DNA of 64,000 bases. Source: Pyropia yezoensis (lineage: Eukaryota > Rhodophyta > Bangiophyceae > Bangiales > Bangiaceae). The stretch is from contig CM020618.1 of NCBI GenBank assembly GCA_009829735.1, positions 31,782,894 to 31,846,893 of the forward strand, in the 5' to 3' direction. Positions 1-22,160 of the stretch are shown here, piece by piece. Below the pieces are notes generated by a model. The model did no database searches and was not told where the DNA came from. It saw nothing but the letters and a program-made list of their open reading frames with translations. Within the stretch, counting starts at the first letter, position 1. Each line of letters begins with the position of its first letter. Both the position numbers and the translations under genes were made by a program.

Positions 1-1191
1 TTGAAAGTTTCAACTGCTGCGAAATGTGAGCGACGACAAAAACGGAGCGTTGCAAGGAGCACTCAGGTACGTGGCACATCGTGCGGGGGGGGAGCCCAGG
101 CGGACAAAAATTTCCACAGACCCTGCCACGCCCGGCGTCGCGGCCGCGGCCGCGTACAGACGTGCACACATACCATTCGGCCGCCCAGTGCACTCGGCTC
201 CACGCACCGTGCCGTCGCTCCAGTCGCCATCGTTGGCTCCCGTGTGTGGCTGCTTCCCTTCCACCCCCCCCCCCCCCTCTCTCCCGAGAGGGTCCCCACC
301 GTCCTCTGCTTGCACGTGCGCCGCCGACGGCGGCGGCGGCGGCGGTGGGGGCGGCGGTGGCCGGCTGCTGTTGTGGCGCCGGCTAAGGCAGTGGCGGCTG
401 CCGTGCGCCCCCCGCCCCCCCCCCCCCCCCTTTCATCTACCATCAACTACTCACCGGTCCCTCGTACCGGCGCCACAACGGCCGTCTGCGGCGGCGGCGG
501 GAGTGGCGGCAAAGATGACGGGGTCACCCTCGACGGCTGCACCAGCGGCGCAAACGTCAGCCGCCCAAACGGCGGCCGGGCCACCGATGGACCCTGCCAC
601 AGAGGGCGCTCCCTGTGCGACCGACAGCGCGGTGGCGGGTAGAAAGCGCTCTCGTGCACAGGCGACGGCGACGGATAACGTAGCCAGCGTCGGGGGCGAC
701 GGCGACGGCGACGGCGACGGCGAAGGTGATGCCGGCGGCGATGGCGCGGACAGTGGGGGGTCCAGTGGGCGGTCCGCCAGTTCCCATTCCGAAAAGCCGC
801 CACGTCAACGCCGGCAAACCCAGCTGTGTGGGCTTCAGGCGGGGGGTAGGCGTGCGGGCGACCAAACGGACAAGGGACGTGCGCCACTTCCCCTTTTGGG
901 GGTCTTGAACCCCAGTGCTGCCGCGGCGATTGCTGTGGCCCGTTCTGCCTCTGTTGGCTGTTCGGTTCATGCCGCGGACGCCGCAGCCACCGCCGCAGCC
1001 ACCGCCACCGGCGCCGGCGTCGTCGCCAGCGCCGCTCGTGGTCGGCGCCACATGGGGGGTCGAGGCCCGGCGGAAGGGCTGCTTATCGAGGAGCGCGTGG
1101 CAGGCCAACAGGGAGTGAGGCGTCAAAGCGCGCAGCGCGGGCCGTGGTAGTGGCACGCCGAGTGGCACAGGTGTTGGCGTGTGCGCCGTCC
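1..1191. other. Upstream region of Ulp1-like gene, low-complexity
   Basis: This stretch precedes the protease gene. It holds poly-C runs (around 265-278 and 410-430), GGC triplet repeats (about 325-360) and a GGCGAC-type repeat (about 697-725). An Ala/Ser/Gly-rich frame stays open from 26 to 1150 in a different phase from the protease. It has no motif I recognise and could be an upstream exon or chance. I see no other gene here. Confidence 0.4.
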
Positions 1192-3063
1192 ATGCGCTCT
1201 GTGGAAGAGCGCTTCTTGTTGGGCGTCGTGCAAGGTGCGGCTATAGACGGGTTCACAGCACCACCATCGCTGGTACCGGCGGGGGCCCCAGGTCGGGCAG
1301 ATCGCGCAGATTCTTGTGCAAAAGAGGACCAGAGCCAGCCGCAGCAGCAGCAGCAGCGCCAAGAACAGCAGGGGCAGCAGGACGAGGTCCACTTGGAGCC
1401 GGCCATCGCGTACGAGGTGGCACCGTTTGTCATGGGCCAGCGTGCTGTCCCAGGCGGCGGTGCATCGGAGGTGGGCGTGCGGCCCCTTCCGCGGCAGCGC
1501 GAGTGGAGGTGGGACCGGCACGCACTGCAACGCGCGGTGCGGTTTCCGCTAGTGGGCGAAGGAACGAACGGTTCTGGGTCCGCACATGTGGACAATGCGG
1601 GAACGACTGCGGCCGCCGCCACCCCCACCAGCACGGCGGACACTGCCGCCGATGCGAAGGCCCCTGAGAAACTCAACAAGCCGGTGCAGCCGAAGAAGAG
1701 GGCGCCTCGTCGACCACCAAAGCTTCCGGTAGGAGCGCCTGCTCGCGTTGGCGCCCTGTCTCTGGAGCCCCTGCCCCCGGACTGTGTGGCGTTCATCGAA
1801 GGGTTGCCGACCGGTCGACGAAGTGAGACGGTGCTTTTTCAAGTGCCTGGCGTGCACGGCTCGATGACGGACATCACGGCGGGCGATTTGCGACGGCTCT
1901 CCGATACCGCCATGTGGCTCAACGACAATGTCATCAACGCGTACGTTGGGTTGATGAATACTCGCGTTAGACGGGGCGACGCGTCGTCATCGTCGACAAA
2001 GGACAAGGTCGCCACCGTGAAGGGTCCTGACACGGGTCGCCGGGGCGGGCGACTCGGGTCGCCTGGGGGCGCATCTGAGCACGCTGGACAGGAAGCTCGC
2101 GGCGGCGTCGGTGACGCAGCGGGGCAAGTCAAGCCCGTCCACGCTCCTCCAGTGGCACAGGAGGGAAGCCAGCCGCCGCGAAAGACCGGGGAAGCGACAC
2201 CTACGACGGGGCCGGAGGCATGCGAAGACCGGGTGGCCTTTTTGATGTCGGACGGGACTGAGGTGGCCACACATCCTGCACACGGCGACGGCAAGATGAA
2301 CAAGGATCCGCATGCTGCAGGCCCGAGTGCCGCTGCTGCGGGCCACGCCGCGGCGGTCGAGGAGCCCATCCACAAGCGGCGACTGGACCCAGCACAGTCC
2401 CACTGTTGGGGCACCTTCTTTTTCACGACGCTGACCGGCGGGGACCCCCACGGGGCAGCGACGGACCACCAGCAGTCGGTCGTTCGAGGTGACCATGCGC
2501 GTGTTTCGAGGTGGACGCGCGGGGCAGGGGTGGACGTCTGTGCACTACAATCCATACTGGTGCCCATCTACGAGGGCGGCAACCACTGGTGCCTCGCACA
2601 AATCAACCCTGTGCGCAGGTGCGTACGGTTTTTCAACTCTTTCCAGTCACGGCACGTACGACCCGGAGTGCTCTCTGTTTTGTACCAGTGGTACAGGGAC
2701 GAGGTCGCTGTGGTGGCGGCGGCGGCGGCGGCGGCGTCGAAATCGAATGTGGCGGACGCGCGGCTCCACGGCTGCGACGACGGCTGAGACGGTGGGGACG
2801 CGCGCGCTGGCGCTGCGGCTGCCGCGACGCGCGCGACAGCGGAGGCGGCACGCGTCGCAGACGAAACCTGCTGGGACGGCATCGTCGTCCGTCGGGGCCT
2901 ACCCTACCAGACCGATGGCAGCAGCTGTGGCGTTTTCATGCTCCTCTTTGCGGACTGCTTGAGCCTGGGAGTCCCCATCCCACCCGTCGTTGGCGCAGAG
3001 GCACTCGCCAATCTCCGGCTGCGAATGGCCCTTGATATGCTCATTGGAAAACTCTACTGTTGA
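1192..3063 (+). CDS. Ulp1/SENP-like cysteine protease (C48), probably two exons
   Basis: This is a Ulp1-type peptidase, a family that removes SUMO or related modifiers and is often carried by eukaryotic mobile elements. The first in-frame ATG is at 1192. The N-terminal half is Gln/Ala-rich linker. The catalytic region starts with WLNDNVINAY (about 1915-1945), followed by a long low-complexity insertion, then CWGTFFFTTL (about 2401), then NHW with the catalytic His (about 2581). The usual Asp position reads FFNSF, so it is Asn. The nucleophile motif QTDGSSCGVFML lies at about 2908-2943 in the same frame. An in-frame TGA at 2785-2787 separates His from Cys. A phase-0 candidate intron, 2704-2844 (GT...AG, 141 nt), removes it and leaves about 50 residues between the Asn and the Cys, close to the spacing I recall for Ulp1. 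Without that intron the gene is truncated before its nucleophile. It converges on the methyltransferase-SET gene. Confidence 0.72.
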
Positions 3064-3216
3064 CGGCGCGACCAGCCCTCGCAGGGGTGTGGGGTTGGCG
3101 GCACCCATACCCAGACCAGTAGGAGGTATGCATGATTTTCTTCTTGTCCATAGACACCTGCTGACTGTGTGTTGAGAGTCGAAGTCCATTTGCCGCCCTC
3201 GCCGCGACGCACGCAC

Positions 3217-3312
3217 CCAGTCTGGTAGTTGGTTCCCTTCCCGGAGCACAGTCGTACCACATAGCCAGTGTGGTAGTTGGTTCCCTTTCCGGAGCACAGT
3301 CGTACCACATAG
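3217..3312 (+). repeat. Tandem duplication, 48-bp unit x2
   Basis: Two adjacent 48-bp units (3217-3264 and 3265-3312), each containing GTAGTTGGTTCCC and GGAGCACAGTCGTACCACAT, differ at only two positions. The duplication lies just 3' of the protease gene. Confidence 0.9.
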
Positions 3313-3381
3313 CGCTCTGCTCAGCCGTCGGCCGTCTTGGCAGTGTGCTTCTAAACCGTCAGGCAGCGCGTCCTCTCAAGC

Positions 3382-3418
<37 letters not shown>

Positions 3419-3639
3419 TCCCCTCCTCTGAAGTCCCCCCAGCACACGGCGTGCGCGCCCCATGCAGGCCCACACACCGCACGTGCACGGCTGTGGCGCG
3501 GCTGCAGGTGCGTTGCACCGCGGCCTGGGTCCGCCAGGACAATCAATGTAAGCGGTGCGGCTGAAGGAGGGGCCTAGGGATAGAGCGGGGGGGGGGGGGG
3601 GGGTAGTCCGGCCGTGCGGGTGCGTCATGGTCAGCATCG

Positions 3640-3835
3640 ATTGTTGTACTTTAACGTCCTTTGTTATCGATTGTTGTATTTAATGTGCTTTCTTTTAAAT
3701 ACCGTGGCCACCACCGACTGCTACGTCCCGGTTGGCCGGTGCACGCATAATGGATATGCGGCGACCCGGCCGGGTGGGGATCCGGCCAGCCGCGTCCGCG
3801 AAAGACTTTGCCGTGGGCGGCTCCCCGCCTCCGGT
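3640..3835 (-). repeat. Dispersed repeat R, copy 1 (inverted)
   Basis: Read on the - strand this is the same core as five copies between 20.6 and 30.5 kb: CACGGCAAAGTCTTTCGCGG, a GC hairpin around GGCCGGATCCCCACCCGGCC, then CATATCCATTATGCGTGCAC. The AT-rich tail differs from the other copies. It is the only copy inside the left element and the only one inverted. Confidence 0.85.
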
Positions 3836-4415
3836 TGCCCGCGGACGTGGACAAGGTCGGGTCCCGCCCCCCCCCCCCCCCCCCCCCCCCCACCGTCCAC
3901 GAGGAAGTGTCGGCAGAAAATTCGGCTTGCAGACGGGCCCCCCCTGCCCCCCCCTTCCCCTCACCCCCCCTCCCCCCACCCCTCCCGCCACCCCTCCCCC
4001 GCCCCTCCCTCACCACCCTGCGCAGCCCCGCTCCCCGTGTCAAGCCCCGAACCCATCGTGTTTGTCATTGCAGCTCAAAGCGAGCTCCCGTTGGGAATGA
4101 GGTCGTGTGGCACTGAGCGGAGCTGCCCCACGTACGCGACGCGCCGCTTCCCCTGCCCTCCCCCCCCACAACCCCACACTCAACCCTAACCCCCGTCTCC
4201 GCATGTCCGTCCCAGCACCCGTCATGGGCTCCACCGCGCGCCGCCGGTACTGCCATTCAGCGCCACTTGGTGCCCGCAACGCCCAAGCCACTGCCCCGGT
4301 AGCGGTGACAGTACAGGTGAGCATGCGTGGCCACTGGGTGTGGTGGTCGGGAATAACGGCCCCCGACGCTCGGTCGGTGAGCCGGTGGGGCTGCACCCGT
4401 GGTCGGTCCGCGGCC

Positions 4416-7400
4416 TCACTCGTGAATGGGCGCAAACGTGTGGGGCGTGCTGCGACGGTTGTCGGCTTCGGTCCGCTCCCGGTTTCTGTCCGCGTTTGTG
4501 TGGCGAACAGTGGTCTGCCTTGTTTCACTGCCCCGCCGGCGGCTCGTGCTGCTGCCGCTGCCGCCGTCGCGGACCGATGCGCCAGCGCGGTCGCCGTCGT
4601 ATATGGCTTGTCTGATGTCCGTGGTCAACCACCGGTAGGACGTACCGTAATCAGTACGCAGTTCCTCCCCCTGGCCTATGTCCCGCGTGGCGACAAGGGC
4701 GACGACCCCCGGCTCCACAAGCTCCGACAGAGTCGGGTCTTGGCCGTGAGCGCCGGGACACCTGACACTCATTTCGACATTGACATCCTGGCCGCCCAAC
4801 CCAGCACCCGCAACAACTGCAGAGGAGTCGCTGGCAGCACCAACAGCAGCAGCAGCAGTGGAATCAACAGCAACACTCGCAGCACCCTTGCGTGTAACAC
4901 CGCCCGGTGGTCGCCCGGCAGAAGGCAAAAACGCCGCCGCCTCGGGAGCCTGCTGCACGGCCAAGAAGCTCTTGGCCGTGGCTGCCCCAACTTGCTGCTC
5001 CAGCCGTGTCTGCCGGCGCCCGTCATTGACTAGCCCCGCCACACACCAGGCAGCGGAAATCATGTACGCGAAAGTCGCCGAGGCGGCGACAGCGGAGCCA
5101 TAGTGTACCCGGCTCCTGCGCGCACGGAGCGGCCGGTCCTCGTCCTCGTCGACGATTTCTTCGCCCAGCTCCTCCCGAGCTCGGCCCTGCTCCTCTTGCG
5201 CCTCCGCGCCGTCACGCTCGTGTTGCTGCTTTTGCTGCTGCGGGCCGCCCGGGTGCTGCTGCTGCTGTCGCTGTTGTCCCATTCGGAGTCGCCCCGTTGT
5301 CCCCCGCTGCCCTTCGTCTCCTTCCATGCTTCCTACAGGTCGAATATGGACCTTGACGGCGTTCTCGGAAAACGCCTTGGACGTAGGTCCCAAGGCCCCC
5401 AGTGTCGGCGACACGTACCGGTCGGTCCTTGTCATACCACGTTTGGCCAGGTTACATGTGGTCAGCGCGCCGTAGAACGGGCAAATCGTATCGCCCTTTC
5501 GGAACCGGCGTCCAGCAAACAAGCCGCTCCCGGCGGTGCCTCCCGCAACGCGGGAATGTGCGACAACGACGCCGTAGTGAGCGGCCTCCACAGCCAGCAT
5601 CAGCTCGTGGTCCTCCACCACAAGGCGAATAACGAGGTCAGGAGGCCAGTCTCCCACGCTACACCCGCCGAGTCCAATGACCACTCCGCCGACCTCAGCT
5701 CCGCGCACAGGCGCGCGGGAGTGCGTGTGGTACCCCGCCCTTCGCTCGTTATCATTTTGTGCGGCCCACCGGTTGGCAAGCAGGAGGAGCATGTGTGCTG
5801 GCAGGGCCGTGAAGCACGGCTGGCCGGGCACGCGCGCCCAGGCAGCGGCTGTCGTTTGAAAGGACGGCGCCAGCAGCAGCGGGGCGGTCTTGGCCACGAC
5901 CAGGTCACCAGCACCTTCAGCAGCACCTGTCGTAGCGACGGCGGCGGCCGCATTGGCTGACAGCACCTCTCGCGCAGCGTGCAACACCTCTGCAGTAACG
6001 TCGGGGCACGACCGGAAGCCGCCACGAACAACCTGGTCGACAAACTCTCGGAACAGGCGTGGCTGCGACGCTGCAATGACGGCCGGGTCGCTGTCGGCAC
6101 AAACAACGCGCCGATGCTGGCCGCCGGGCATCCTGATCGCGGCCATCGCGGTGGAGCACGTGCCCGCAACCATGTCGAGGACGAGGTCGTCCGCATTGTA
6201 CATTGGAATGATCGACTCGGACAGGAAGAGGACAGACTTCTGCTCGCTTCGGACGCGTGGCGCAAGGGCGCGCGGGCGTGTCTTGTGGTGCGCAGGGCGA
6301 AAAGGAGGACACAATGGTGACGTCTGCTGCTGCTGCGGCTGCAGCTCATCCTGACGCTGCTGCACAGAGGAGGTGGGATGCGGCGGGCAGCGCGGCTTGG
6401 CCAGCATGGACAGAGCACCGGCGTCCAACGCACGCCGAGTACCCACGCGTCGGCCAGCGCGAGGCGGGACGTCGTCGGGAGCACCCCCCGACGCCCCCGC
6501 CGACGCGGTGGGGGCAGCACCACCACCACCCGCACGTGCACGTGCACGCGCGCTGCCTCGATCGGCACCGCCTCCCCGTTCCGGGGGGCGTGCCCCGCGC
6601 TTTGCGCGTCCTTGAGGGCCCAGGCTCCAGTTCACGTCGCTTCCGTCGTCGTCGTCGTCGCCGTCATCGTCCGTGTCGTCCTGGTCGCCGCCCTCCGTGT
6701 CGGAGCCGTCGGCAACGTCGCTATCCATATCGTCGTCGTCTCCAACATCATCGTTGGGTTCAGGCACTTCTCCGTCGTCGTCGGCCCCGTCGTCGGAGCC
6801 GCACGGCGTATTGTCCCCGTCTCTGTCCGTATTCTCATTGCCGCTGTCGCCGCCGCCCCCGCTCCCGCCGTCTGTGTCCCGCCGCCCGGTGCTCTGCCGC
6901 TGCTCCTGCTGCTGCAGCTTACCAGCCAACTCTCTCAGCCCCGGCGTCCAGCGAAGGACCTCGACATCCCGTAGGGGAACCACGTTGTCAATGACGTTGT
7001 GGTGCGCGGGGAAGCGCGGCGGGACGGCGTTGAACGTGCGGTAATTAACAGCCCGGTAGGCAGCCGCAGCGGGCGCTCCGTTCCTGGCCGCGTGGAGCAC
7101 GTACTGGGACCGGTCGGTCATCATCGTCGACAACCTTCTTGTCGGTGCCCACGCGTCGCGCGCCAGAACGGCCAACAGGGGGCACGATTCCACCTGAAAA
7201 GCGGGTGTAGCTCGCCGTTGTCGTTTTCGCTCCCGTGGTTCTCCAACAGAAGGTTCCCAGCCGCCCCGCCCGCCACCGCCACTGCCACGGTTGGGGTGAC
7301 GACCCCCGCCGCTACCGGCAGCTGAGCGGTCGGTCGTCCTTGGCGGACCTGTGGTCGTAGCGGCGACCGCACCGTCGGGCGCATCAGGGGCAGCACCCGT

Positions 7401-10400
7401 TGCAGCCCCTGCCTCAGCACCAGCCGCACGCTGACCCCCCGACACTGGCTCCTTCGCACCGCCGGGAGCTGCAGCTACGGCTGCTGCCTTGTCATCATCC
7501 GTCGGCGGGAGTGGGTCCTCCAACTTGCTCAGATGCGTCACCCACAGCGGGAACTGCATCGGGCTGCAAAAAAGTAGCACGGCCCACCAGGACGAACCCA
7601 GTCGTGTATCCGCGACACGGTCTTCTTCAGCACGTCCTCCGACAGGTTGTCGTAATGAGAGTTGAGCATTGCATGTAAACGGCGGGTGTTGTAAGGGGCG
7701 TCGGACAGCACGAGCTGAACAGCGCCACGCAGGTCGGGGCCAATGCGGCAAGCATCACATCCTCCGATGCGGCTGCTGCTGCTGCTGATGCTGCTGCGGG
7801 CAACCTCGTTGGCGGCGCTGTGGGTGTCGTCGAGGTCCCTCACGTCGCACACATGCGTTTGCACAATGGCACGCATGGCCGTCTGCACAGCGCGGATGTG
7901 ACGGGCCAACGGGTCGTCGTTGGTAACAGGCCTGCAACTCCCCAACGCAGCCGCAGAGCCGCCCTCGGTGCCAGGCACTGGCGGAGGGAGCACTGGTGAC
8001 CCCCCGGCTACGGACGCCGCTCGTCTGGCCAGCGCTCTTGGTGCTGCTGATGGTACAGGCGATGGTGCTTCCGGCTGCGCCCTCAACGCTGCTGCCGGTG
8101 CTTTTCGTGCTGCTTGTGCTGCTCGCGGACCTGGCTGGCCTTGCCCCCCAGCGGCATTGACGGGCGTGGCACGCCCACCACCCACGCCGCCGCCGTCGGC
8201 CTCGTCGTCACACACACGGGGAGCGGCGTGTGTTTCAACAGCAGCAGCAGCGACAGGCGTACCACCCCGGTGTATGTCCGCAGCCAACGCCGCACGCGCT
8301 GCGGCGATGCCTGCGTCGCGCGCAAGAGCGCGGTTCTCCAGGCTCACACGAGCGCCTGCGTCCTCCACGCGACAAGCACGCATCCTCCCGGGGGCGCCCC
8401 CCCCCCCCGCCCCCCCCTCCTCCGCGGTGGCCGGCGTCGCAGGCGGGATGGTGCCCATCGCTGCTGCCCCCGCGGCATCGACGACGACGGGCCGAAAGCC
8501 GGTTAGGCCTCGGACGGTCGGGTTTAGCACTGGGGGCACCCCCACCACCTCCCACAGACAGCGTGCTGCCAGTCATCTGCCCACAAATGCAACGGCTGTC
8601 AAATAGCCCGGCTTTGTTTCCCCATTGACGGCAGCAGGAAGCGCGTCAACCGCCGACGCAGCCGACGCCGGTGGTGGAGCACCCGCCGCCGTGGCGGTGG
8701 CTGGGCGGGAAGGCGCTTGCAGATGCTGTCCTCGCTGCGGCTGGCCCCGCTGCGGCTGCTGCATTGCAGTTGTTCCCAACAGAGCGGCTGCCGCGTCGGC
8801 GAGTCGCTCGGGCTTCGTCACCTCCCCCATGTGGTAGACAAAGTGAGCAGCAGCCATGCGGAGCTGTGCATCCGCGACGGCGGTGCGGTGCAGTGCCTCT
8901 GTACAGACGGGAGTCCCGTCCCTGTCGGCCCTGGAAGTTGGGGGGGGGAGCCCGTGGGCAATGTCAAACCGCTGCGCAGCGGGCGCGAATACGCCGGCAG
9001 TACCTTGCGTTTCTGACAGCGTCGTAAACGCGCACGACCGTGAGTGCCACAAGAGCTACGGGGCGAGGCACTTCTCGATGCTTTCGAAGCCGATGCGCCT
9101 TGCGACGGCATCCCAGGAGCGCACGACGGCGGTCACAGCATATCGAACGGTGGCGCTGAGTGCCAACAAGGCGAGCCCCTCCCGGTGCGCAGCGCACGCG
9201 TCGTCTGCACCCTGTTCAGGGCTGCTTGGGACGCCCGTACCCCCAACGGCGGAACGAGGACGCTTTCGCCCATGTGGGGGAGGCTCAGCTCCGGCAGCCG
9301 CAGCAGCGGACGCGCAGGCCCACCATGACGAAAAGTGTCGACAAGCGGGTGCAGCGAGGAGAGCCACAGTAGGAGCTCGAAAGGCTCCATCTCGGCAGCA
9401 GCCTGCAGTCGCTCACAACGACAGGGCTGGCGTTCGGCGGCAGAGTCGCTGGCGCTGCCAGCACACATGCCGCCATCAACGGCACAACAGCCGCGTTCAA
9501 AGGCGGTGGTGCCGAGGGCGCCCTCCAGAATGGCTACAAGAAACCGCTTGTCTGGCTTCAGCACGTCCACTCGCTGCAGGCCCCGGGCAGCGCCCCGGCG
9601 AGCGGTCTGCCACCCCGGCCGGCCGGGCAGTGCCAACGGCTGCGGCGACGCCAAGCGCGAGCGCTGCGCCGTCACAAAAGACTCGTGGTGCCGACCGGTC
9701 GAGTGTGGCACATGCCGACCCTGTCCGGGACGAGGGCGATGCAGAACGGGCGGCGCGGCGCTTCCTGTGGTTTGTTTCTGACCGGCTGTGTTTGTCTCTT
9801 GCCTGGCTTGGCACGCGGCGCTTTCCGCAGCGGCTGCGTACGCCGCGGTACGCGAAACTTCCTCCCCATGCCCGCAGCCAGCCGCATGCCTGGCACATGC
9901 GTCTCGATAACGTAAGCTCGCGGCCAGGGCGGCCACGTCCAGAGCAGCTTCTTTCAGCGTCCCAACGTCAAGGACCGCTTGCCACACCGGGACGTCAACC
10001 GACGGGTCGCCCGACGTACAATCAACAACAGCAACGTTTGTCTGTCGTAGTTTGTCGTCGTCGTGGTTGGCGTCTGTCATGTGGACGACACAGCCGGGCA
10101 GACCGCGGGTCTCTTCTTCGTTCAGCGGCGGTGGGAGTGGCTGTCGCGTCGGCGACTGCAACTGCGGCGTCGGCCGCGTCGGCGGTGACACGTCCACACG
10201 CCCGGAGCGGAGGGCGAGCACGCGGAGCCACGCGGATGACGGGCGGGGACGCCGCCCGCGCGCGTCCCCGCCGCCCCCGCCGCCGAGCGGGAGCAAAGAC
10301 ACAAACCGCTTGAGGACCCACACCGCACTGTACATGCGCTTGATGTGGGAACCCTCCATCCACCACGTCAGCGGCGTGTAAAGCACGCGGCCCGACGTCG

Positions 10401-10831
10401 GGGACGTACCGGCAACCCCATTTTCGGCCTCGGGAGGGCAATCAGACCACATGAGGCGCGGCCGCTGCTGCAGATGGTGCTGCTGCTGGCCTTGGACGGC
10501 GTTCCGAAGAGGGGGGCGCGTGAGCGTGATGGCCCAAAGCTTGACCGCCGGCCACGTCGCGTCCTCGAGTGTCGCATCGGCCGGACGGGGTGCGGCCACT
10601 CCCGAAGCCGTACTGTTATCACCTCCACACGCTGACCGCACAGCAGCAGCTACCGGGCCGCCCCCATTGCCGTCGGGATTGTCCAACTTCTCAATGCGCA
10701 CCTTGTCCAGCACAAACAGGTCGCGCAACGCGGCGAGGCCGACAGTGATAGCGCGGGCGCGATATGCGTCGTGCACGTCCATGCATGCAAAAAGGGAAGG
10801 CCGGCAACCACATCCGCCCTGAAAGTCCAGC

Positions 10832-10862
<31 letters not shown>

Positions 10863-11183
10863 CGACGACGCCGCCGCCGCCGCCGCCGGTTGTCCCGCGC
10901 CGCTCATCGTCTCGGACAGCGTTTGGCGCCCCGGCGCGCCGCTTTGTCGGGCGCCTCGCCGCGGTAGCGGGCTGGTTGCCACGATCCTCCACAGGACAGA
11001 CATCTTGCCGCCGGCACCGCGTTCGGTCCCGGTGGCGGTGGCGCCGCCAATTGCAGTGGCGGCGGTGTCAGCGGCGGGGGCGTCCGCCCCATCACCTGCG
11101 GCGTCCACCACGGCCTCAGCGCAAGCGGTGACGATGCGCGTGACGCTGAGGACGAGCCACGAGGGTGGCAAAAGGTCGGCCAT
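4416..11183 (-). CDS. DNA amino-methyltransferase (beta-type) fused to SET domain; broken frame or multi-exon
   Basis: One long - strand coding region. It may start at ATG 11183 (MADLLPPSWLVLSV) and ends at a stop at 4416. Roughly 10.9-9.2 kb encodes a segment I do not recognise. The frame continues through ALSATVRYAV and TEALHRTAVADAQLRMAAAH (about 8.8-9.2 kb) to LVLSDAPYNTRRL (about 7.70 kb), a DPPY-type motif IV. WVRPGG and FCSPMQFPLWV follow, then, after acidic linkers, DLVLDMVAGTCSTAMAA (about 6.18 kb), a motif I. Motif IV before motif I is the beta-class N6A/N4C order. A SET domain follows: SGLFAGRRFRKGDTICPFYG (about 5.5 kb), an inserted Gln/Glu-rich loop, LVNDGR, then LVATRDIGQGEELRTDYG (about 4.65-4.70 kb). 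Frame changes occur near 10.9, 9.2 and 7.57 kb, and stops at 8573-8575 and 9056-9058. The last stop falls in a good candidate intron. The break at 7568-7573 looks like one missing base in a run of six A/T. Confidence 0.68.
8931..9059 (-). other. Candidate intron, 129 nt
   Basis: On the - strand it begins GTAGCTC and ends with a C-rich tract and CAACTTCCAG. It is 129 nt, a multiple of three, and removes the in-frame TAG at 9056-9058. Splicing would join EKCLAP to ADRDGTPVCTEALHRT in one frame. It is inferred from splice consensus and frame only. Confidence 0.5.
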
Positions 11184-11733
11184 GCGGGCAGCCGGGCTTG
11201 CACTCGGAGCCACGGCGCGGGTGAAGCTCCGCAAACGATCGCGGCAAGTTCCGCGTCGCAGTGCGGTGGGTCGTGTGCACCGGTTCCGCGTCGCAGTGCG
11301 GTGGGTCGTGTGCACCGCAGCCACCCACGGACAGAGTGTTGTGGTCGACCGACATTTGGCGCGCTTCTGTGTAGCCGCAAGTTCATACATTCAAAACGGA
11401 ATGCACTTGTCAATCGATATCTATCCTGTGCGGCGTCACTGAATCTAGAAAGATATCCATATGTGTACTGAATGGGAATTGAAACCGACGAGTACGTACA
11501 GAGCAGCTGTGTGATGTTCTCAGGTTTGCACCCTCGGCGACCCAGCCACCCACACACCCCCCGGTCATCCCCCCGCACCGTCGTTCAAACACAGGAAACA
11601 AACAAATGCAAAACAGAAAACAGCACCACTCCCCACGACCACCACTGCCACACAAACTAGCTTCCCCAGGCATCCCACATGTCAACAGACACACTCCCTG
11701 CGCGACCGCCTGAGGCCCATGCGGTCGCCTTTT
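11184..11733. other. Intergenic, AT-richer, between the two large - strand genes
   Basis: The composition falls clearly between about 11370 and 11690 (TATCTATCC, AAAGATATCC, AAACAAACAAATGC), unlike the flanking coding DNA. It also contains a 35-bp tandem duplication (11248-11317). It is the likely 3' end of the ParB-like gene and promoter/5' region of the methyltransferase-SET gene. I cannot place individual elements. Confidence 0.5.
11248..11317 (+). repeat. Tandem duplication, 35-bp unit x2
   Basis: Identical units at 11248-11282 and 11283-11317, each with GTTCCGCGTCGCAGTGCGGT, just upstream of the putative start of the methyltransferase-SET gene. Confidence 0.9.
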
Positions 11734-14700
11734 TCAAATCGGGCGCCTCTTGGAAGGACCTCCATCCGCCGGCCGGCCGGAGCTGGTCCGTGACAGAGGC
11801 CGCCCCGTGTCCCCGTCCGTCTCATCGTCCTCACGTAAGCGCTTCCTTCCGCCACTACCACCACCGAGTCGACGACCACCATCCTCGGTGCGGCGACCAC
11901 CACCTCCTCGGGCACTGTCGCCACCAGCACTCGCGTTGCGGCCTTCCCCTTTGTCGAGGCCGTCCCCCCGGACGCCGGGTCGCAATCGGGCACCATGCCC
12001 AGGGCGACCGGCCAGGCTACTCGCACCGCTGCCTCCACCGCCGCGGCCACGACCGGCACTGGCGCGCACGCTACCGTGACTGACACCTCCAGACGCGCGA
12101 CGAGCGACTCTAGTCGCCGGGCCGGTGCCACCACCATCGGAGCGGGAGCTACCACCGCGGCCGCCGCCGCCCCCGCCACCGCCGCCGCCGCCGCGGCTGC
12201 CACTGGGACCTCCGCCACTACCAGGCGGGTGCCTCTGAGCAAGAGGAGGGGGGCGACGCCCAACTCTGTCACGGTCGGCGGCAATTCTGGCGGCAAGGCT
12301 CGCAGAGAGTGCGGCGGCGTCGAGCGGCGTTGCACGACTCGGTGGCTTTGTGGCACCCCGTCGGCTTTGTGGTGGTTGCGAAGGTGTTCTCGTTGAAGCG
12401 GTGAGGGCGGATGCCGGCGAAGGCCGTCGTCCGGGGAGTCCGGGACGCTGCGGTGGCCCCGTTGCCGGCGTCGTCCCAGTCACAGACGTGGAAGTTGCTG
12501 CTCGCCGGAGTGTCGTTGAGCTTTCCAGTGCGCGGGCCTCGGGCCCGGGCCGTGGGGTCCGCCGCCGTGCTACACTCGACGGCACCTCGACGGCCGGCTG
12601 GCTGCCGTCTCTGGCTCTACCGCCGCCGCCGCCGCCGCCGCGGCCACCACCGCCGCTGAGGGCGCGGGATGATTGCGGCGGCGCTGCTGTTCGCCCCTTG
12701 CCCTTGGCACGACCAACGGACGTACTCGCTTACGCTGTCACTGTTGCTGCCGTCGTCGCTGCCGCTGTCGCCGTCACTGTCGCCGTCACTGTCGCCGTCA
12801 CTGTCGCCGCCACTGCCACCGTCGCTGTCGCTGCCGCTGCCGCTGCCGCTGTCGCTGCTGACGCCACTGCCGCCGTCACTGCCGCCGTCGCTGTCGCTGC
12901 CGCTGCGACTGCCGCTGCCGCCGCCCCTGTTGCTGTCGCTGTCGCTACAGCTGCCGCTGCCGCTGCGGCTGCCGCTGCCGCCGCCCCTGATGCTGTCGTT
13001 GTCGCTGCCGCTGCCGCTGCCGCTGCGGCTGCCCCTGCTGCTGCCCCTGTTGCTGCCCCTGTTGCTGCCGACGTCGCTGCCGACGCCACTGCCGCTGTCG
13101 CTGCCGCTGTCGCTGCCGACGTCGCTGCCGACGTCGCTGCCGACGCCACTGCCGCTGTCGCTGCCGCTGTCGCTGCCGACGTCGCTGCCGACGTCGCCGC
13201 CGCTGTCGCCGTCACCGTCGCCGTCACCGTCGCCACCCTTGTTTTCGGGGACACACTGGCCGCATTCGGTGCATCGGCCGCGCTCACGGAGACGGCGGCG
13301 GGCTGCCACGTCTTCGGGGGAGATAAGCACGCCTGCACGTAGAGGCAGAAACACTGCATCGTACAGCGGGTCGTCCTCGTGCTGCAGGTACATGTGGAGG
13401 CGGATGCTGCGCGGGTAACTCACTTCCGCGAGGGCCTTGTGCGCTCGCCACACGTCATCCTTGGCGCCTGTGCTGCCGTGCACAAGTTTACTGCGAACAA
13501 TGATGAAAGAGCTGGGCGGCAAGACCAACGTCATGGGCATTACCAATTGGTCGCGTAAGGTGGGGTCGTCGGCTTCCCGCTGCAAGGCCAGCACGCTTCC
13601 CGGCCAGACGCGCAGAGAAAACGCGTCTGCCCCAGACGCAAGAGCAAAAAAACTTCTCGTCAGAGGCATCTCGTACACAGGATCAGAGACCACCTGCACG
13701 TCAATGCCAGTGTCCTCGTCGTCATCGGCGTATTTGCCATCATCGTCCATAGTGCCGCTGGCACCGAGCGCCCCGTGCGAGGAGGAGCCCTTGCGACGCT
13801 CGCTCCCGGCCGGCCCACCACCGTCGCCGCCACCGCGGCGACGCTGTCGACACTCGGCGGACGACCAAACGGGCAAGTCCACGTGCGGGACCTGTGGCAC
13901 TGCGCCGGCAGTCGTCAGCAGCACCCTCGAGCCCGTCCGAGGAGTACGAACGCGAAGCGGTGGCAGTGCGTCGTCTCGGCTGCCGACAATGTGCTGCTCG
14001 GTAGGCCCGGGGACGGGCCGCGTGGACGTGGCGGGAATCAGGTTCCGACCGGGCCGGGCGTAGGGCAGCTGCCAGTGCTCGCGGCGTGCCGCTTCAACCC
14101 TCTGAAGGCCGCGAAGGACCTTGTACGCCAGGGCCAACATACCCGCATCAGCCGCCAATTTGCACAGGTACAGGCTGTGACGCTCGTTGTCGTCTGAGCT
14201 GCAGAGCGCGTCCACCCCGACGGTTAGCCGGCCTTACCCTTTGCTCGTGAACTTGCGGTCCAGCGAATCAATGTTGGTGTTGATGACGGGTGACCACAGG
14301 TCATCCACGTGCAGCCCCCCGTCGTCTGCACCGGGGAGTGTATCACCCGCAACAGTACCGCGACCCCCAGCAGCGACGCGACCAGTGTCGCCCTTCCGAC
14401 TGCGTCTTCCACTGGCACCCCGCCGCTGCCCCTGCTTGGCCCGTCTCGTCAGCTCTGCCTCCCCAGGAAGCCTGCGCATGAGCTCGTGCAGCGTCGCGTC
14501 CACAACGCTCAACACCCGTCCCGCCGTCCCCGTGCTTGACTCCGCCCTAGGGCGGGCTTGCAGCCGCGAGGGCAGCCCCGCCGCCGCATGGATACCGCCG
14601 CCACCCCCACCGCCGCCCCCGCCGTCGTCGTCGGCCATGTGCATGACAGGCATACCTACGGCGGTGGCGCCCTGGAGAATCGCCCAGCCGCGCTCAAAAC

Positions 14701-15830
14701 GCTCGGTCGCAAGCACTGACGCGGCCGTCGTCTCCAAAAGGGACAAGACTTCCTCGGGCCCGCCCGACGACATGACGTTTGTGTCGGCCTTGGCGCCCAG
14801 CGCAGCCCGTGCGCCCGCGTTGACCATGTACACCTTCGCCCGGGCGTCCGCGTCGTACCAGACGCCCAGCTCCAAAAAGTCCCGCGCCTGGTGCTCCAGC
14901 GGCAACAGCGCCGCAAATGGAGGCAGTACCATTTCCGCGGCACCAGCGGTGGCGCCACGCGCGCGTCCTCCTGCTCCTCCTCGTCAGCAGCAGCAGCACC
15001 ATTAGCAGCCACCGCCAAGCGCGGCGGTAGTAGAGGGCAACCAAGAGCCGCCCGCCTCGCAGTAGCGTCGAGTGCTCGGGAGGCCGCCACTGGCGGCACC
15101 GTATCGGTGTACGGCCGCGTCGAAGGGTCTACCCCACCGCCGCCCGAGGGAGCACGCCCTGCTTCTTCGGGGCTTCCACCCACTTGGTTCTTGCCCGCGC
15201 CACGCGTGGCCTTGCTGGATCCGCGCGGCGTGCGCTTGGACTCCCCGTCGCTCTTGTCGGCCGCCTTGGCGGTCGCCTTGGCCTGAGGGCGGCGCGCACG
15301 GTTGGAGCGCGCTTTCTTCTTGGTCAATGACTGGACCCACCACCGCCACCGTGTGCCGCCCCCGCCACGGACGCTTGTCGCGTCGCCCGATTGGCGGCGC
15401 TGCGGGTGTGGCGCCTCCGAAATGGGGTGGCCGACGTCGAGCCATCCGCCGGCCCACCACTACCACCCGCAGCAGCGGCAGCGGCAGCGACGGCAACAGG
15501 GGCAGCGGCAGCGGCAGCAGCAGCGGCAGCGGCAGCGGCAGCGGCGGCGGCAGCGGCGGCGGCACGAGCACCTGCACGGGGACCGGCACCGGCAGCCTCA
15601 GCCGCAGCCGCAGCAGCCGCCAAAGCGCTCGCTGCTGTATCCGTGACTTCTGCGACGGCTGCTGCCGGCGCTGCCGGCACTGCTGGTGCGGGTGCTGCTG
15701 GTGCGGGTGCTGCTGGTGCTGGTGCTGCTCTTGCGGGTGCTGCTGGTGCAGGCGCTGCCGGTGTTGGTTCTGGTGCTGCTGGTGTTGGTGCTGCAGGTGC
15801 TGGTTCGGGTGCTGCAGGTGCTGGTTCGAG

Positions 15831-15866
<36 letters not shown>

Positions 15867-18051
15867 ACGCACACCTGCATCAAAACCAGCACCCTCACTC
15901 GCCGGACCAGAACGGGCACCTGCACCGTCACTGGCACCTAAATTGGCAGCGGCAGCCGTAGCCGCAGCCGCAGTACCCGCCAAGGCGCTCGCAGCTGTTC
16001 CTCTGGCTTCTGCCTCGGCTGCACGCGATGATGCTGTTGCTGTTGTTGCCTCCGGTACGGTTGTCGGTACTGCTGCCGGTGCTGCTCCCGGTGCTTCTGC
16101 CGGTGCTGCTGCCGGTGCTGCTGCTGTGGCTGCGGGCGCATCCTCGGGATTTGCAGGTGCCTCCGGCGGTTTGGCCGACAGAGCCCGTGTCGGCGACTGG
16201 GCCGGCGGCGGTGAGGACGGTGATGACCGCAACTGGTCGTCTACCTGCGTCAAAACGGCGGGAACGAGCGGCCGCCGCACCGTATCCACGATCGTCCCAA
16301 AACAGTCCGACCGCGAGGCCGCGGCGTCGCCGGAGCCGTGACTCTTGTCGTGTCCACCACCGCCACAGTCCGCCTCGTCACGATCTCTGGCGTCGCCGTC
16401 GTACCGCTGGGTGTCATTGGCGGCCCTCTTGTTGCCGCCGACGTCAGCATTCACAGCGGGAATGACAGTGACCTGGGGCTGCTGCTGCTGCACCGGCCGC
16501 ACCTTGCCTGCAGTTGCTGTGGCAGCGGCCGCAGCGGCAGCGGTCGCCACAATGTCCTCTGCAATTGTGCTCGTCGGCGGCGGCGGTGGTGGTGGCGGCG
16601 GCTCTGCCTTGACAAACGCGTCAAAGTCCTTGGCCCACGCAGCATAGTGGACAGTCATAAACGGCCGATGACGAACTTGGGCACCATCCCTCCCGCCTCC
16701 GTGTTGTATGACAGTCTTGCGCTGGCCAGTGACCTTGTTTACTCTCTCCACCGTGGACATCATTTCTTCGCACGTGTAGTGGCGTACGAAAACGCCGATC
16801 AGCTCGTGCCGAAGCGTCCGCGAGCGGCCTGGCCGGCGCTGCTGCAGCACTTGCAACGCCGACACCGCCTTGTCGTCGAGGGCGAGTTGTGCGTGGCGTG
16901 CGGAAAACGACTTTGCCTCCGCCGTCGCCGAGGTAGTCGGCACCTTGGCGACCGTCTCAGGCTGCACGCGCCCATCCCCCCCCTCCCCCTCCCCCGTGGT
17001 GTGTGGCTCGTGCTGCTTATGCTGCTCCAATCCACCACGGGTGATCCGATACAAGCGCTCAGCGGTGACCGAGTTGATGACGTGCATGATGAAAAGCAGT
17101 ACGCACCAGTAAAACGGGCTGTCCGCGCCCCGAGTCAGACGGTTCATGTGGCCGTCTGCTGTGAACCCCGCGGACCACGCCCAAGACGTATCGAACATCA
17201 GCACACGTGCAGAGTTCCTCTCAGCTGGCGGCACTCCGGGAAGATGGAAGAACGGGATGGACCCAAGTGCCCCAAACGCGAGCGTCCTGTTCGCGCGCTG
17301 GCGCAGTAGCTTGCCTCGGCCGTCACGGGCGGGCCCCTTGCCACAGTCACGTGAGCCGCCATCGACGCCGTCGACGCCATCGTGATCGTCGGAATCGTAA
17401 GAGTCGTTGTCGTCTTCATCGTCGTCGTTGTCGTCCCCGCCACTGACAGGGCCGCCGGCGACACGCGCGGCACGACGTGGCACACCGCGGGGCTCACGAG
17501 AGCGAACCGCAACAGCACCCCCGGCGGCTCCGTTCCTGTCCTTGGCTGCGGCTTCCTCCTGCAGCTTGGTGACAATGTGCTCGATGGACCCGCGCTCTGT
17601 CACGGCAGCGGCACCCAAGCTGAGCAGCTTACGCAGGTACTCGTCTCCCAACTCCTTTTGTGTTGTGATGCTACGAAGCACCGCCCCATGCGAGCGTGCT
17701 TCCTTGATGAGCAAGCCAACAGCCTTCGCCAGGTCCGCTGGCGGCATGCCCGGTGTGATGCAGTGGTACGCGCTGGCCAGTGTGGCGTCGTTGCGCGCCG
17801 TCACCCACCCAATGGCCCGGGTGAGCTGGTCACGCGCACTCATCGGCTCTGTGCGCACCGTGACAAAGTTGGCGGCGCCGCTCAGGACGATAATGTCCGT
17901 CCTGGACAGTGGCCGCCCGTCACGACGTGATACGACAGCAAAGAGCTCCGACGCTCGCGAGAGTGGGTGACGCTCGTTCAGGTGACGCATCAAGGCAGTA
18001 AACCGGTGGTAACCATCAATGAGCCAGTGCCGTTTTCGGCGTTGACCGCCG

Positions 18052-18099
<48 letters not shown>

Positions 18100-18593
18100 G
18101 GGTCCTTATCAAAGTCATCCCCGCCTTGTTCGCACACGCGTAGGGAGCCTGTTACCCAGCAGTAGCCCGTCTGCTTAAACTGTTCGTAGTACAAGCCGAT
18201 GACGTAGGCCCGTGACGCGCGCACACCCTCGCCAAGCATGTCAATGTCTCGAAGGGACACCGACTCTTGAGCCGTGCAAAACGGAGATATAGGGCCGTCG
18301 GCGGGCGCGGCGTCGGGCCCGTCCGTGATCCGGCACGGTGGCGGACGATCATCCGGGGGAGTCCCCGGACGTTCGTCACCTTGGACGGTACCGGCGCCGT
18401 CGTCGCCGCCCAAACAGGAGCAGCTGATCCCGTCCGGCTCCGGCTCGTCCCCCCCACCGGGCTGCGTCTGCGTCAACGGCGGTACCGGTACCGAAGTCGA
18501 GTCGTCACGACCGTCGAGGTCGCCAAAGTCCAGCAGAGCGTCGTCGTAGCTCAGCGACGGTGTGGCCTCCCGGCCGTTGTCCTCGACGTCCAT
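11734..18593 (-). CDS. ParB/Srx-like domain plus 2OG-Fe(II) dioxygenase-like protein; multi-exon or broken
   Basis: It starts at ATG 18593 (MDVEDNGREATPSL). About 150-190 residues in come YEQFKQTGYCW and HWLIDGYHRFTAL (about 18.0 kb); DGxHR is the ParB/Srx signature. Several hundred residues of ordered sequence follow, including FGALGSIPFFHLPG, then a long Ala/Pro tail to a stop at 15324. Coding character continues in a second frame with a basic stretch (KKKARSNRARR, 15.3 kb) and in a third with RDFLELGVWYDAD (14.9 kb). After a 39-nt candidate intron comes SLYLCKLAADAGM, then PHVDLPVW (HxD, about 13.87 kb), IIVRSKLVHGSTGA (distal His, about 13.48 kb) and RSIRLHMYLQ (Arg, about 13.4 kb), an order typical of 2OG-Fe(II) oxygenases. 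A Ser/Gly/Asp repeat and a basic low-complexity tail (RKRLREDDE) end at 11734. It may be one gene or two (break near 15.3 kb). Enzyme activity is inferred only. Confidence 0.6.
12730..13240 (-). repeat. Ser-Gly/Ser-Asp coding repeat
   Basis: A purine/pyrimidine-biased array built from CTGCCG, CTGTCG and ACGTCG hexamers, reading as alternating Ser-Gly/Asp on the - strand. It contains larger repeated blocks such as GACGTCGCTGCCGACGCCAC. It follows the dioxygenase-like region as a flexible linker and is likely length-polymorphic. Confidence 0.8.
14199..14237 (-). other. Candidate mini-intron, 39 nt
   Basis: On the - strand the sequence runs G|GTAAGG, then CTAAC (branch-like), then CTCTGCAG|C. 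It holds the only stop (TAA, 14234-14236) between two long segments in the same frame. Removal gives FTSKG-SDDNERHSLYL. It is unusually short, so an in-frame stop mutation is the alternative. Confidence 0.45.
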
Positions 18594-20619
18594 GTTGTCC
18601 GCGAGGGGCGGACTGGCCGCCTAAACGGAAGGCGGAGGGGATGGCGGGGGGTCAGAACACTCCATATCTGACCCCGGCGCAGAGCCCAGCGTATAACAAG
18701 GGCACTCGGTCGTCCGTGCCGCGCGGGGGGTGACGGAGGCCGGCGTCGTTGGCGGGGGGGGGGGGGGGGCGGGGGGGAGGTTGTTTGTCCTCGGGGGCGG
18801 GGGCAAAGAAGGTTGAAAAAGAAAGGCAACCCGGGAGGCGGCGTCGGGGGGTCGACAGATGGGTGCAGGGGGGGTGGGGAGGGCGGTGCGCGAAAGGGAG
18901 AGGGGGCGGGGAGGGTGTGTGAATACGGGAGATTGGGCCGGTGGCAGTGACATGGGTCGCGTCTCGATCCCGCGACACGACCGCGGCCCAGACGCGAGAA
19001 TTAGAGCAGGGGGGGGGGGGGCGGGCGGGGTCGTGCCACGTCAGAAGCCCTCGGGTTCGTGCGTTTGTTGCTGCCGGCGCCGGTGACAGCAAGCGGGGCA
19101 CGTGCGCTGCCAGTGTGTGTGTGTGGAATCCGCAGGCACGCGCCAGTTGGATATACAAAATGGAAAGAACGGTTTGCCACCAGGACGGTGCGGCCCGTCC
19201 AACGCGTGCACCGTCGGTTCAATTAAATGCACTTTTTGAGCAACGCCTTTGTCGTGACGGTCCTCGTGAATGATTTGACAAGCGAATATGTACCAGCTTC
19301 GCCGACGGGCCATTTGGTGTTGACAGTCGTACGTGCAACGAACCGCGCAAGCCGCGTTGCCAGTCAAATCGGCCGTCTGTTAGGGACATGGTGTGAGACC
19401 CGCTGCGCTGGCCCTCGCCGGCTGCAACGCCCGGATGCAGCTGCGATGCCCGGCGCCTGGTCGCCTGCCTAGCGCTGCCGCCCTTCCCGCCCACGCCTCA
19501 GCTGCCGCCGCCCTTTCCCCCAATGCCACAGCTGCCCCCCCCTGCCGCCCATGCCGTCGCTGTCAACGTCCACAACGCTGGCGGCGGCTGCAGCAGCGGC
19601 GGCAGCCGCCACAGCTGCGTCACGTAGTGCTACTCCCGCTGCGGCTGCGGCGGCACGGGCTGCGCTTGCCGCGTGGCGCGCCGACCCTCGGATGGGGATG
19701 GCGGCGGCGATTGAGGCTATGCGGGAAGAGCTCCCCCCGGGGTCGCCGGCGGGCTCTCCCAGTAGCTTCCCTGCCGGACTCGCCCCTGGACTCCCGGCAG
19801 GGTTTCCTGTCGGCTTCCCAGGGGGGTTCTGGACCGCCTCTCCAGGGGGCTTCCAGTGAGGCTTCCTGGCGGGTCCCTTCTCAGGCCTGGCAAGCCTACC
19901 TGGCATGGCCGGCGGCGGCGGCGGCGGCGATGTCGGCGGCGGTGGCAGAGGTGGTGGGCTCCGCGCCGGCATTGGCATTGGCGCGGGCGACCATGGCACC
20001 GGTAGCGGGGACCTAGGGGACACCATCGTGGTCGCTGACTATGTGCATCCTTCTGTGGCAGCCGATAGCGGGGTGGTGGCGTTTGTGCGCGGTGGGGGCG
20101 CGTGGGTGGCGGCGGCTGCTGAGGAGCGGCAGTTGACTTTTTCAGGTGGCTGTGCCGGCTGTGGCGGCTGCTCGTGTGGGCTGCCCGGGGGGGGGGGGGG
20201 GGGCTGAGGCCTGAGATTGCCTGGGCTTCCGCTGGGATGGGAGCTGCGGAAGGAAGCGCGTCGCTGCCCGTGGGGGGTCTCTGAATGCGTCATGGCAAAG
20301 GAGTGTGAGCTGAAAGTGGGCTTTTGGGTGTCCCCACCCGTCGGGAGGGGAGGAGAAACAGGAAGGTGGATGGCCGCGAGGGGTGGGCTCGGGGGATGGC
20401 GCAGCCACCGGCGACGCCCGTGCCGCCGACGGAAAACTACACTGGCGATGATGGCGCTACCCACCCCTTTCCTCCATAAAAGACCGCCGCGCCAGTACTC
20501 CGCCCGCCCAACCGCCGACCGTCCACCCCGACTGCACCGCAACGCTCCACACCTCCACCCCAAATGCAAGCACCCCCCAACTGACATGCGCGCAACCCAG
20601 CAGCCGTCACAACCCACAC
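18594..20619. other. Non-coding region upstream of the ParB-like gene
   Basis: The region has G/C homopolymer runs (about 18749-18777 and 19009-19021) and AT-richer sequence around 19200-19390. An Ala/Pro-rich open frame on the + strand (19551-19859) has no motif and antisense mirrors, so I do not call it a gene. The likely promoter of the - strand ParB-like gene lies in the first few hundred bases. Confidence 0.45.
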
Positions 20620-21066
20620 CACCTGGGAAATGGGGAGGGGGGGGGGGGCGGGGGGGGGGGGTGGAGCGGGCAAAGCAGGGCAGGGGACCTGCGGTCGCGA
20701 GGGGTGGGCGCGACTCAGGGGGGGGGGGGGGGGGGGGGGGGGCGACGCGCCAACAGCGGCACCAGCACGGCTGGAAAAACCGCACCGGCGGTGCGGGCGG
20801 GCACCCCCTTCCCCAGAGGGAGGACGCGGCGCGCATGGTGGGATGGACGTATCGCCACACCGCGCGGAATCCCCGCTCGCGGGCGCATACAGGGAGCCGT
20901 CCACGGCAAAGTCTTTCGCGGACCCGGCTGGCCGGATCCCCACCCGGCCGGGTCGCCGCATATCCATTATGCGTGCACCGGCCACCCGGGACGTGGCAGT
21001 CGGTGGAGGCGTCGGTAGTTGTATCAATTACCATTACAGCAGTCCTGATTGTCAAGTCTCGCTAGG
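20620..21066 (+). repeat. Dispersed repeat R, copy 2 (long form)
   Basis: It matches the copy at 25549-26024 along almost its whole length: CACCTGG, GCGGGCAAAGCAGGGCAGGG, a G run, AACAGCGGCACCAGCACGGC, then the R core from 20902 and an AT-rich tail (TTGTATCAATTA...CAGTCCTGATTGTCAAGTCTCG). No ORF with protein character is visible. Confidence 0.88.
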
Positions 21067-22160
21067 CGGCCTGGCGGGCCGCGGCGGTGGGAACGGCCGC
21101 CGCCGCCCGGGCTGTGGCGGCATGGGTGGGCGATGGAGGTGGCGGCGGCGGCGGGCGGGGGGGGGGGTGGGGGGGGAGGGGGGGGATGGAGGGGCAGGGG
21201 AGGGGCGGGGGGCGTGCAGGGAGGGCGATCCCGGGGATGAGGGAGGTGAGGGAGGGTGGGCGGGGGAGGTACCCTAGCGTCTCCCGCACGCGCACCACAC
21301 CACCGCCGCACACACACGTTCCTCTGTCTGTCACACAAGGGGCGACGAGGATTGGGTGGGAAGGGGGGCGTTGCGGGTTGTGGCGGGGGGCACGTGCCCC
21401 TGACCCCCCCAGGCAGTGGGACGTTGCGCGGCTGTCTCGGGCTGGCGGGGTGCTCTTGGGTGGCGCAAGCAAAAACAGCCCCCAAGAGAGATGGGGGGGG
21501 GGCGGGGGGGGCGCAGAGGAGCAAGGCAGGGCGGGGCGGGTGCACGAGCGGGTAGTGCGGTGGGCTCCCCAGCGGGGCCGCCGCCGCCCCCCGCCTAGGG
21601 GGAGGGCGGTGCCCCCGCCGCCGCCGCCGCCCCCGCCGCGGGCCTCGAGCTCGCGGCCATTGCCCGCACGCTGGGCGCCGCCGCCGCCCGCCGTGGGCAC
21701 GCCCCCGCGGCCGCCGCCGTGCGGCGACGGTGGCGGGCGACGTGGCCGGCGGTGCGGCCGTCGCCGCCCGGTCTGCGGGAGGTGGGGGGGGCACTGCCGG
21801 CGGCGGCGGGGGGCGGGGGCAGGTAGCGGACGGCGGCGGCGGCCGCCGCCCCGCACATCCAGGCGGCGCTCGCCGCGGACGCGGCGGGGGCGACGGCCGC
21901 GGCGGTCGACGCGGGGGTGGCGGCGGCGCTGGTGGGGGTGGTCGAGGCGGTGCTCGGCGTGGGGGGGGGGGGGGGTTGGGGGGGGCAGGGGGGGGGGGCG
22001 ACGCGCGGGGGGTGCTGGCGGCGTTGCCCGCCGACCGCAAGGAGCTGTTCAAGGGGCTGGTTGCCGCGTGGGAGGCGGGTGGGAATTACGATGGCAAGGT
22101 GTGAGAGAGGCTGGGGAGGGCACGCCGGGGGGGGGGGGGTGGGGGGCCGACGCACACCCC
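21067..22160. other. Poly-G/poly-C and GGC-rich spacer
   Basis: Almost entirely G/C low complexity, with many G runs and GCC/GGC triplets. Open frames cross it in all phases, and one + strand frame (21087-23099) runs on through three repeat units. None has motif or codon evidence of coding. Confidence 0.5.

Follow-up and report, generated by a model that had tools for sequence, protein, structure and literature searches.

A probable giant multicopy transposable element with ParB-like, oxygenase-like and methyltransferase-like genes in the nori nuclear genome

Fungal Starships are giant, cargo-rich transposons that move by tyrosine recombinase. Here we analyse a window of 64,000 nt of the red alga Pyropia yezoensis (nori; contig C1:31782894-31846893, from a 107.5-Mb genome in 11 contigs), meaning by 'window' that whole stretch, in which a Ulp1/C48 protease gene, a methyltransferase-SET gene and a ParB-oxygenase protein lie close together; these genes probably belong to the central part of a single decayed copy of a giant transposable element that is present many times in the nuclear genome. 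The description of giant mobile elements in algae is at an early stage; several described algal elements bear on this one. Sola1-1_Ec32 of the brown alga Ectocarpus carries a ParB-methyltransferase gene, with similar transposon proteins in green and red algae, and the protein is proposed to bind and modify the element's own DNA (PMC12477816). Giant EnSpm/CACTA elements of 16-20 kb with 4-5 open reading frames (ORFs) occur in Chondrus (PMC6431247), and giant EnSpm elements are also reported from red algae in a Bostrychia paper cited in PMC12477816. TET/JBP dioxygenase genes, for which an anti-silencing role has been suggested, are known as transposon cargo, and SET genes are named as cargo too (PMC12730594).

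Set beside these systems, the nori element resembles Sola1-1_Ec32 in bringing ParB-like and N6A/N4C methyltransferase-like domains onto a giant algal mobile element, but its ParB-like domain is paired with an oxygenase-like module and its methyltransferase with SET in another gene; it is also more than twice the size of Sola1-1_Ec32 (21.5 kb), and no Sola transposase was found in the scanned ORFs. With the red-algal giant EnSpm elements it shares giant size, several extra ORFs and a red algal host, whereas it reaches at least 50 kb with nested insertions, has a right end that is not CACTA-like and shows no transposase in the scanned ORFs. Like the TET/JBP-bearing transposons (PMC12730594), it places a dioxygenase (in nori, an oxygenase-like module) on a mobile element, SET also being cargo there, yet its module has no TET/JBP profile match, and the scanned ORFs hold no KDZ, EnSpm or Helitron core protein. 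Giant and cargo-rich as Starships are, it differs from them in that no tyrosine recombinase was seen in the ORFs scanned. These domain scans covered selected ORFs; the left end of the element and about 3 kb found in other copies at window 32045-32066 lay outside them.

A first-pass annotation, made from the letters of this DNA, had called the gene set undescribed. Our literature search, whose coverage excludes two key papers, found no publication with the nori gene set or with a ParB-oxygenase or methyltransferase-SET pairing, and the main text of a ParB-fold survey (PMC12704722), in the part available, does not contain 'dioxygenase', 'transpos' or 'alga'. The word holds in part: no match was found for the gene set, but algal transposons with ParB-methyltransferase proteins, and giant EnSpm elements of red algae, have already been published (PMC12477816 and PMC6431247).

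Dispersed copies with conserved gene order and one exact right end

The principal features of the window copy are as follows.

1..33826, no strand assigned: part of the giant element inside the window; it continues left of the window
1192..3063, plus strand: Ulp1/C48 protease gene (PF02902), broken in the window copy by a TGA at 2785-2787
4417..11067, minus strand: methyltransferase-SET gene (PF00856 and motifs), frames broken in the window copy, start not fixed
7691-7705, 6150-6185, 5493-5525 and 4644-4670, minus strand: methyltransferase-SET motifs, read in translation
12620..14983, minus strand: 2OG-Fe(II)-oxygenase-like module (HxD...H...R) of the ParB-oxygenase protein, with an in-frame TAA at 14234-14236 in the window copy
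13871-13888, 13466-13486 and 13391-13411, minus strand: HxD...H...R of the oxygenase-like module, read in translation
15327..18593, minus strand: ParB-like part of the ParB-oxygenase protein, with DGYHR at 18003-18017
32045..33826, plus strand: right terminal region, with the exact end ...CCACCAGGGTAACT at 33826

Within the nori genome, and with the window copy included and pieces of one copy merged, we counted at least 17 copies of the C48 gene, at least 16 of the oxygenase module and at least 18 of ParB, on contigs C1, C2 and C3; these are lower bounds, the ParB count leaving out a 55% match (C1:6118621) and weaker ones. Identity to the window is at least 78% for oxygenase copies, at least 74% for ParB copies and 74-96% for pieces overall. 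In nine of the 17 C48 copies (eight plus the window), the opposite strand carries first the oxygenase module and next ParB, at distances of up to 45 kb, an arrangement whose maximum in 2000 shuffles was 0. Spacing is close to constant in seven of these nine (C48 to oxygenase 9.3-10.9 kb, to ParB 12.6-14.1 kb); 14 of 18 ParB copies have the oxygenase module immediately after them, and 13 of the 18 have the right end within 80 kb on the expected side. Recurrence of the genes elsewhere had been named beforehand as the test that could overturn the idea of an element, and eight C48 copies besides the window keep both order and strand.

At the DNA level, copies at other loci align at about 80-97% identity to window 1-5115, 3716-7364, 15018-20014, 30000-33829 and most of 18600-30000, and window 13289-14233 is matched in other copies as protein. 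Between these, window 7365-13288 lies outside the copy alignments, and we infer that it belongs to the element from the near-constant C48-to-oxygenase spacing in seven copies. The 17.4-kb block first taken for the element was thus too short: the element begins to the left of the window and extends to 33,826.

At that position the element stops sharply. Sixteen DNA alignments stop at query 3827-3830, equivalent to window 33,826, and junctions read ...CTTTCCCCACCAGGATAACT, with few changes, before giving way to 24 different flanks in 24 of 24 cases (window included). In 22 of the 24, a C or T immediately follows the end. The 19-base right end occurs 51 times with up to two mismatches (contigs C1, C2 and C3) and 67 times with up to three, compared with 7 for a control at up to three mismatches. 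Old segmental duplications of a host locus, rather than transposition, might account for the long collinear blocks common to the copies, many of which have lost parts; this explanation is largely refuted by the 51 copies of one terminus with different adjoining sequence in 24 of 24, and LTR-like (long terminal repeat) pieces at different places in different copies also speak against it, so that we give it almost no credence. The element is dispersed, its gene order is conserved, and its exact right end lies in different surroundings each time.

The left part of the element is common to many copies, and loci L067 and L068 represent its leftward continuation past the window start. One copy (copy 5) reaches from C3:19636728 to 19691556 or farther, a span of 54.8 kb with nested insertions counted, and the element is at least 50 kb in size, nested insertions included. 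Alignment between the window copy and copy 5 breaks off near -5.1 kb, with zinc-knuckle gag DNA beyond; a zinc-knuckle gag at L067:1312-4337 belongs to a probable LTR retroelement beside the element, and a repeat piece from beside this gag is found in other copies. A stop at L084:7756 was considered as the left end and rejected: seven of eight other copies share sequence beyond it and one is cut at another point, and because those seven continue past the stop, it marks a nested insertion in copy 5. Separately, two exact right ends face outwards 10.5 kb apart at C3:15909683-15920211, possibly a derivative with two right ends.

The same terminus extends to much more diverged relatives. From 41 oxygenase rows below 60% identity, we tested the 37 on C1-C3, leaving aside a single row on C7, another at the beginning of C2 (the piece C2:1-171) and two second pieces. 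These 37 relatives are 34-51% identical to the window, and in 15 of them the same right end lies within 80 kb, with side and orientation as expected, whereas random placement gave a mean of 0.70 (maximum 4 in 2000 trials) and a wrong-side control gave 0. The 15, two of which share one end, are 34-43% identical; the other 22 lack such an end. Near nine of the ends carried by the 15, terminal DNA of 0.8-1.8 kb is 87-96% identical to the window despite the diverged proteins, indicating that ends are exchanged or shared; and as this right end is common to diverged families, they probably share its recognition in trans. Among the relatives at 44-51% (n = 7, C1-C3), the common terminus is absent throughout, and five are situated no more than 80 kb from a contig end. 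Diverged ParB-oxygenase relatives near contig ends (C1:43.54-43.58M, C3:29.31-29.38M and C2:1-171) are perhaps subtelomeric.

Protein modules and inactivation of the window copy

The protease is the most firmly identified of the proteins: the Ulp1-like call is confirmed by Pfam, in which PF02902 scores above its cut-off both in the window copy (expectation value, E, 1.4e-8) and in another copy, L016 (E 1.9e-15). Its translation contains the stretches WLNDNVI, GNHWCL and DGSSCGVF, whose WLND, NHW and SSCGVF cores we take to be the C48 catalytic motifs. His, Gln and Cys stretches are present, and Asn (in RFFNSF) occupies a position at which Asp is usual. The TGA at 2785-2787 separates the His part from the Cys part in the window, whereas both share one open frame in 11 of 13 C48 loci examined, the window not being among the 11; its C48 copy is thus broken. 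Genome-wide there are 73 C48 matches, about a dozen from the element family and some 60 others, and some of these other stretches score identically, as if repeated.

For the ParB-oxygenase protein, 9 of the 14 copies having both modules keep the ParB frame in phase with the oxygenase frame (4.7 expected by chance), and the window copy does not, so the two modules, proposed at first pass to be joined, are joined in most copies but not in this one. Protein databases hold two relatives of the oxygenase-like module, P0001 and P0002. P0001 reads through the place of the window TAA without a stop, and P0002, a metagenome protein, is 43% identical over 94% of the oxygenase query stretch and keeps the motifs as HxE...H...R; constraint on the module over longer times is suggested only by these kept motifs. 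The P. yezoensis protein I4F81_003427 is 94% identical to the window oxygenase stretch over 60% of it.

The methyltransferase part carries SDAPY (7691-7705) followed by LVLDMVAGTCST (6150-6185), that is, motif IV before motif I, a permuted order that is a trait of beta-class DNA methyltransferases. It is split over two frames in the window copy, and we infer that the segment 8573-11067 belongs to the same gene. The SET domain proposed for this gene held up: PF00856 reaches E 1.1e-4 and 23.0 bits against a curated cut-off of 22.4, although only the C-terminal end of the profile is matched. The window copy of the element is inactivated.

Transposition weighed against other explanations

Several results count against a transposable element that carries this full gene set. 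At the level of domains, profile searches upheld the C48 and SET calls but not the other three. The methyltransferase call stands by its SDAPY and LVLDMVAGTCST motifs, its best profile match reaching E 0.23 only. For the ParB/Srx (DGxHR) domain, the motif is present (DGYHR, and NGYRR in a second ORF), but Pfam, PHROGs, NCBIfam, PDB and phages gave no significant match; a protein-database search with ParB likewise returned no relative among 7986 candidates scored, probably because it was swamped by low-complexity words. The 2OG-Fe(II)-oxygenase call keeps its HxD...H...R set, which P0002 retains as HxE...H...R, with no significant profile match, Pfam included, and no reliable match in PDB. AlphaFold yielded no usable fold for either the oxygenase or the ParB module (predicted local distance difference test, pLDDT, 30 and 37 respectively). 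At the level of the element, both partners are missing from their places at 6 of the 17 C48 copies and two more are accompanied by just the oxygenase module, and the methyltransferase-SET gene has, besides the window, three partial DNA copies only (C1:5.71M, C3:16.92M and C1:16.60M, the last being L024). Several copies hold about 3 kb extra at window 32045-32066 that are missing from the window copy, where about 21 bases overlap at the break. In young copies, the ratio of non-synonymous to synonymous substitution rates (dN/dS) for ParB and C48 is 0.66-0.88, against 0.68-1.18 in two wrong frames; because these values hardly differ, current selection on the two genes is unsupported. The left terminus was not reached in the copies followed leftward, no inverted 19-base right end with up to three mismatches was seen near the left sides of copies compared by eye, and, as at first pass, no transposase or integrase domain was found in the selected ORFs scanned.

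These last points also bear on which kind of transposon it would be. A CACTA-type terminus is a hallmark of EnSpm/CACTA elements. A giant EnSpm/CACTA-type (or other DDE) transposon, with transposase and left end unread or lost and the genes described here as accessories, is an unlikely candidate, for which there are precedents: giant EnSpm elements bearing additional ORFs have been reported from Chondrus and, through the cited Bostrychia paper, from red algae, and a ParB-methyltransferase accessory gene is reported in the brown-algal Sola1 element. Yet the nori right end, ...GGATAACT in at least 20 junctions, is neither of CACTA type nor of the form 5'-CA..TG-3', the latter said in PMC12730594 to be usual in the EnSpm/CACTA clade; moreover, the left sides show no inverted 19-base partner and the scanned ORFs no transposase match.

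An exact right end for which no inverted partner was detected, the C or T that follows it in 22 of 24 junctions and the giant size would also suit an asymmetric-ended element whose movement depends on a tyrosine recombinase (Crypton- or Starship-like) or on rolling circle (Helitron-like); we hold this to be about as unlikely as the EnSpm alternative, given that the scanned ORFs, which represent part of the element, contain no recombinase, Rep or helicase match. Somewhat more doubtful still is a distinct lineage of giant eukaryotic elements that would combine asymmetric ends, a recombinase and a reader-writer-eraser set of their own; such an element would recognise itself by its ParB-like protein binding the dispersed 130-bp sites, in the manner of ParB-parS, and would both mark its own chromatin and lift its silencing.

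An endogenised large DNA virus or provirus-like replicon is very improbable. The large size, the presence of several genes, among them ParB-like and methyltransferase-like ones, and duplicated ORF families could all be read that way, but the ORFs scanned by Pfam include no capsid, polymerase or packaging domain. Scans sensitive to close relatives only found none of ParB, P0002, the methyltransferase-SET gene, the NYN-like ORF or C48 in viral contigs, none in prokaryote genomes (P0002 query only) and none in phages (ParB query only). The mobile-element part of the original interpretation, which had spoken of a mobile or integrated replicon, is retained, on multicopy occurrence, gene order and a sharp right end, while 'integrated replicon' is left without support, these scans having found no close viral, prokaryote or phage relatives.

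Dispersed repeats, neighbouring genes and possible control of the element's own chromatin

Further features of the element and its surroundings are listed here.

3697..3828, minus strand: 130-bp repeat, copy 1
20892..21020, plus strand: 130-bp repeat, copy 2
22391..22503, plus strand: 130-bp repeat, copy 3
22945..23071, plus strand: 130-bp repeat, copy 4
25796..25922, plus strand: 130-bp repeat, copy 5
30290..30410, plus strand: 130-bp repeat, copy 6
L068:7690-7815: 130-bp repeat in the left continuation
26407..27201, plus strand: ORF family copy 1, 48-52% amino-acid identity to 27922-28761 and L068:8874-9812
27922..28761, minus strand: ORF family copy 2, inverted, 64.5% amino-acid identity to L068:8874-9812
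30938..31612, plus strand: second, short ParB-like ORF (NGYRR), 40% identical to the large ParB domain
46984-50376, 57600-59069 and 60274-61761: genes right of the element

The 130-bp repeat is palindrome-rich, its matches being 88-98% identical and some of them partial. It occurs in 16 of 19 C48 loci of the element family (not in L011, L022 or L024), some copies having more than one partial unit at the place corresponding to 3.7 kb. No match was found in window 33.8-64 kb or in 57.9 kb (partly overlapping) of 17 other C48 loci; within the DNA examined, matches are confined to element loci. Folding of four repeat copies was no better than that of shuffles (z -0.47 to -1.16), and Rfam gave no match in window 1-34000. 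We regard the repeat as a candidate cis site.

The ORF family of 26407-27201 has three occurrences in the element DNA examined, two in the window and one in L068. In the left part of other copies lie two related NYN/PIN-like ORFs, for which the match to PIN_11 is not significant (E 0.079); a PDB match of the NYN-like ORF (E 2.4e-4) covers residues 335-402, a Gly/Ser/Asp-rich tail, and was set aside as low complexity. To the right of the element, the window continues into ordinary genes, namely a DUF2921/RING transmembrane E3 ligase-like gene, an ERG4/ERG24 sterol reductase and an RCC1-like gene.

A giant transposable element remains the probable source of this gene set, and a working scheme for it can be put forward. 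The element would move as a DNA segment by means of a recombinase encoded in its unread parts or supplied by another copy, while its accessory proteins would target the chromatin of the element itself. The ParB-like domain might recognise or load on element DNA, perhaps at the dispersed 130-bp repeats; the methyltransferase would write, and the oxygenase remove, a base mark; SET would modify histones; and the Ulp1 protease would strip SUMO from host silencing proteins. By such activities the element could escape silencing.

If so, the accessory proteins may let a selfish element control the chromatin mark on its own DNA. A recurrent gene set of protease, methyltransferase-like/SET and ParB-like/oxygenase-like proteins travels together, and its terminus is common to families whose proteins are only 34-43% identical; self-targeted marking of DNA and histones, and mobilisation in trans, thereby become testable in a cultivated seaweed.

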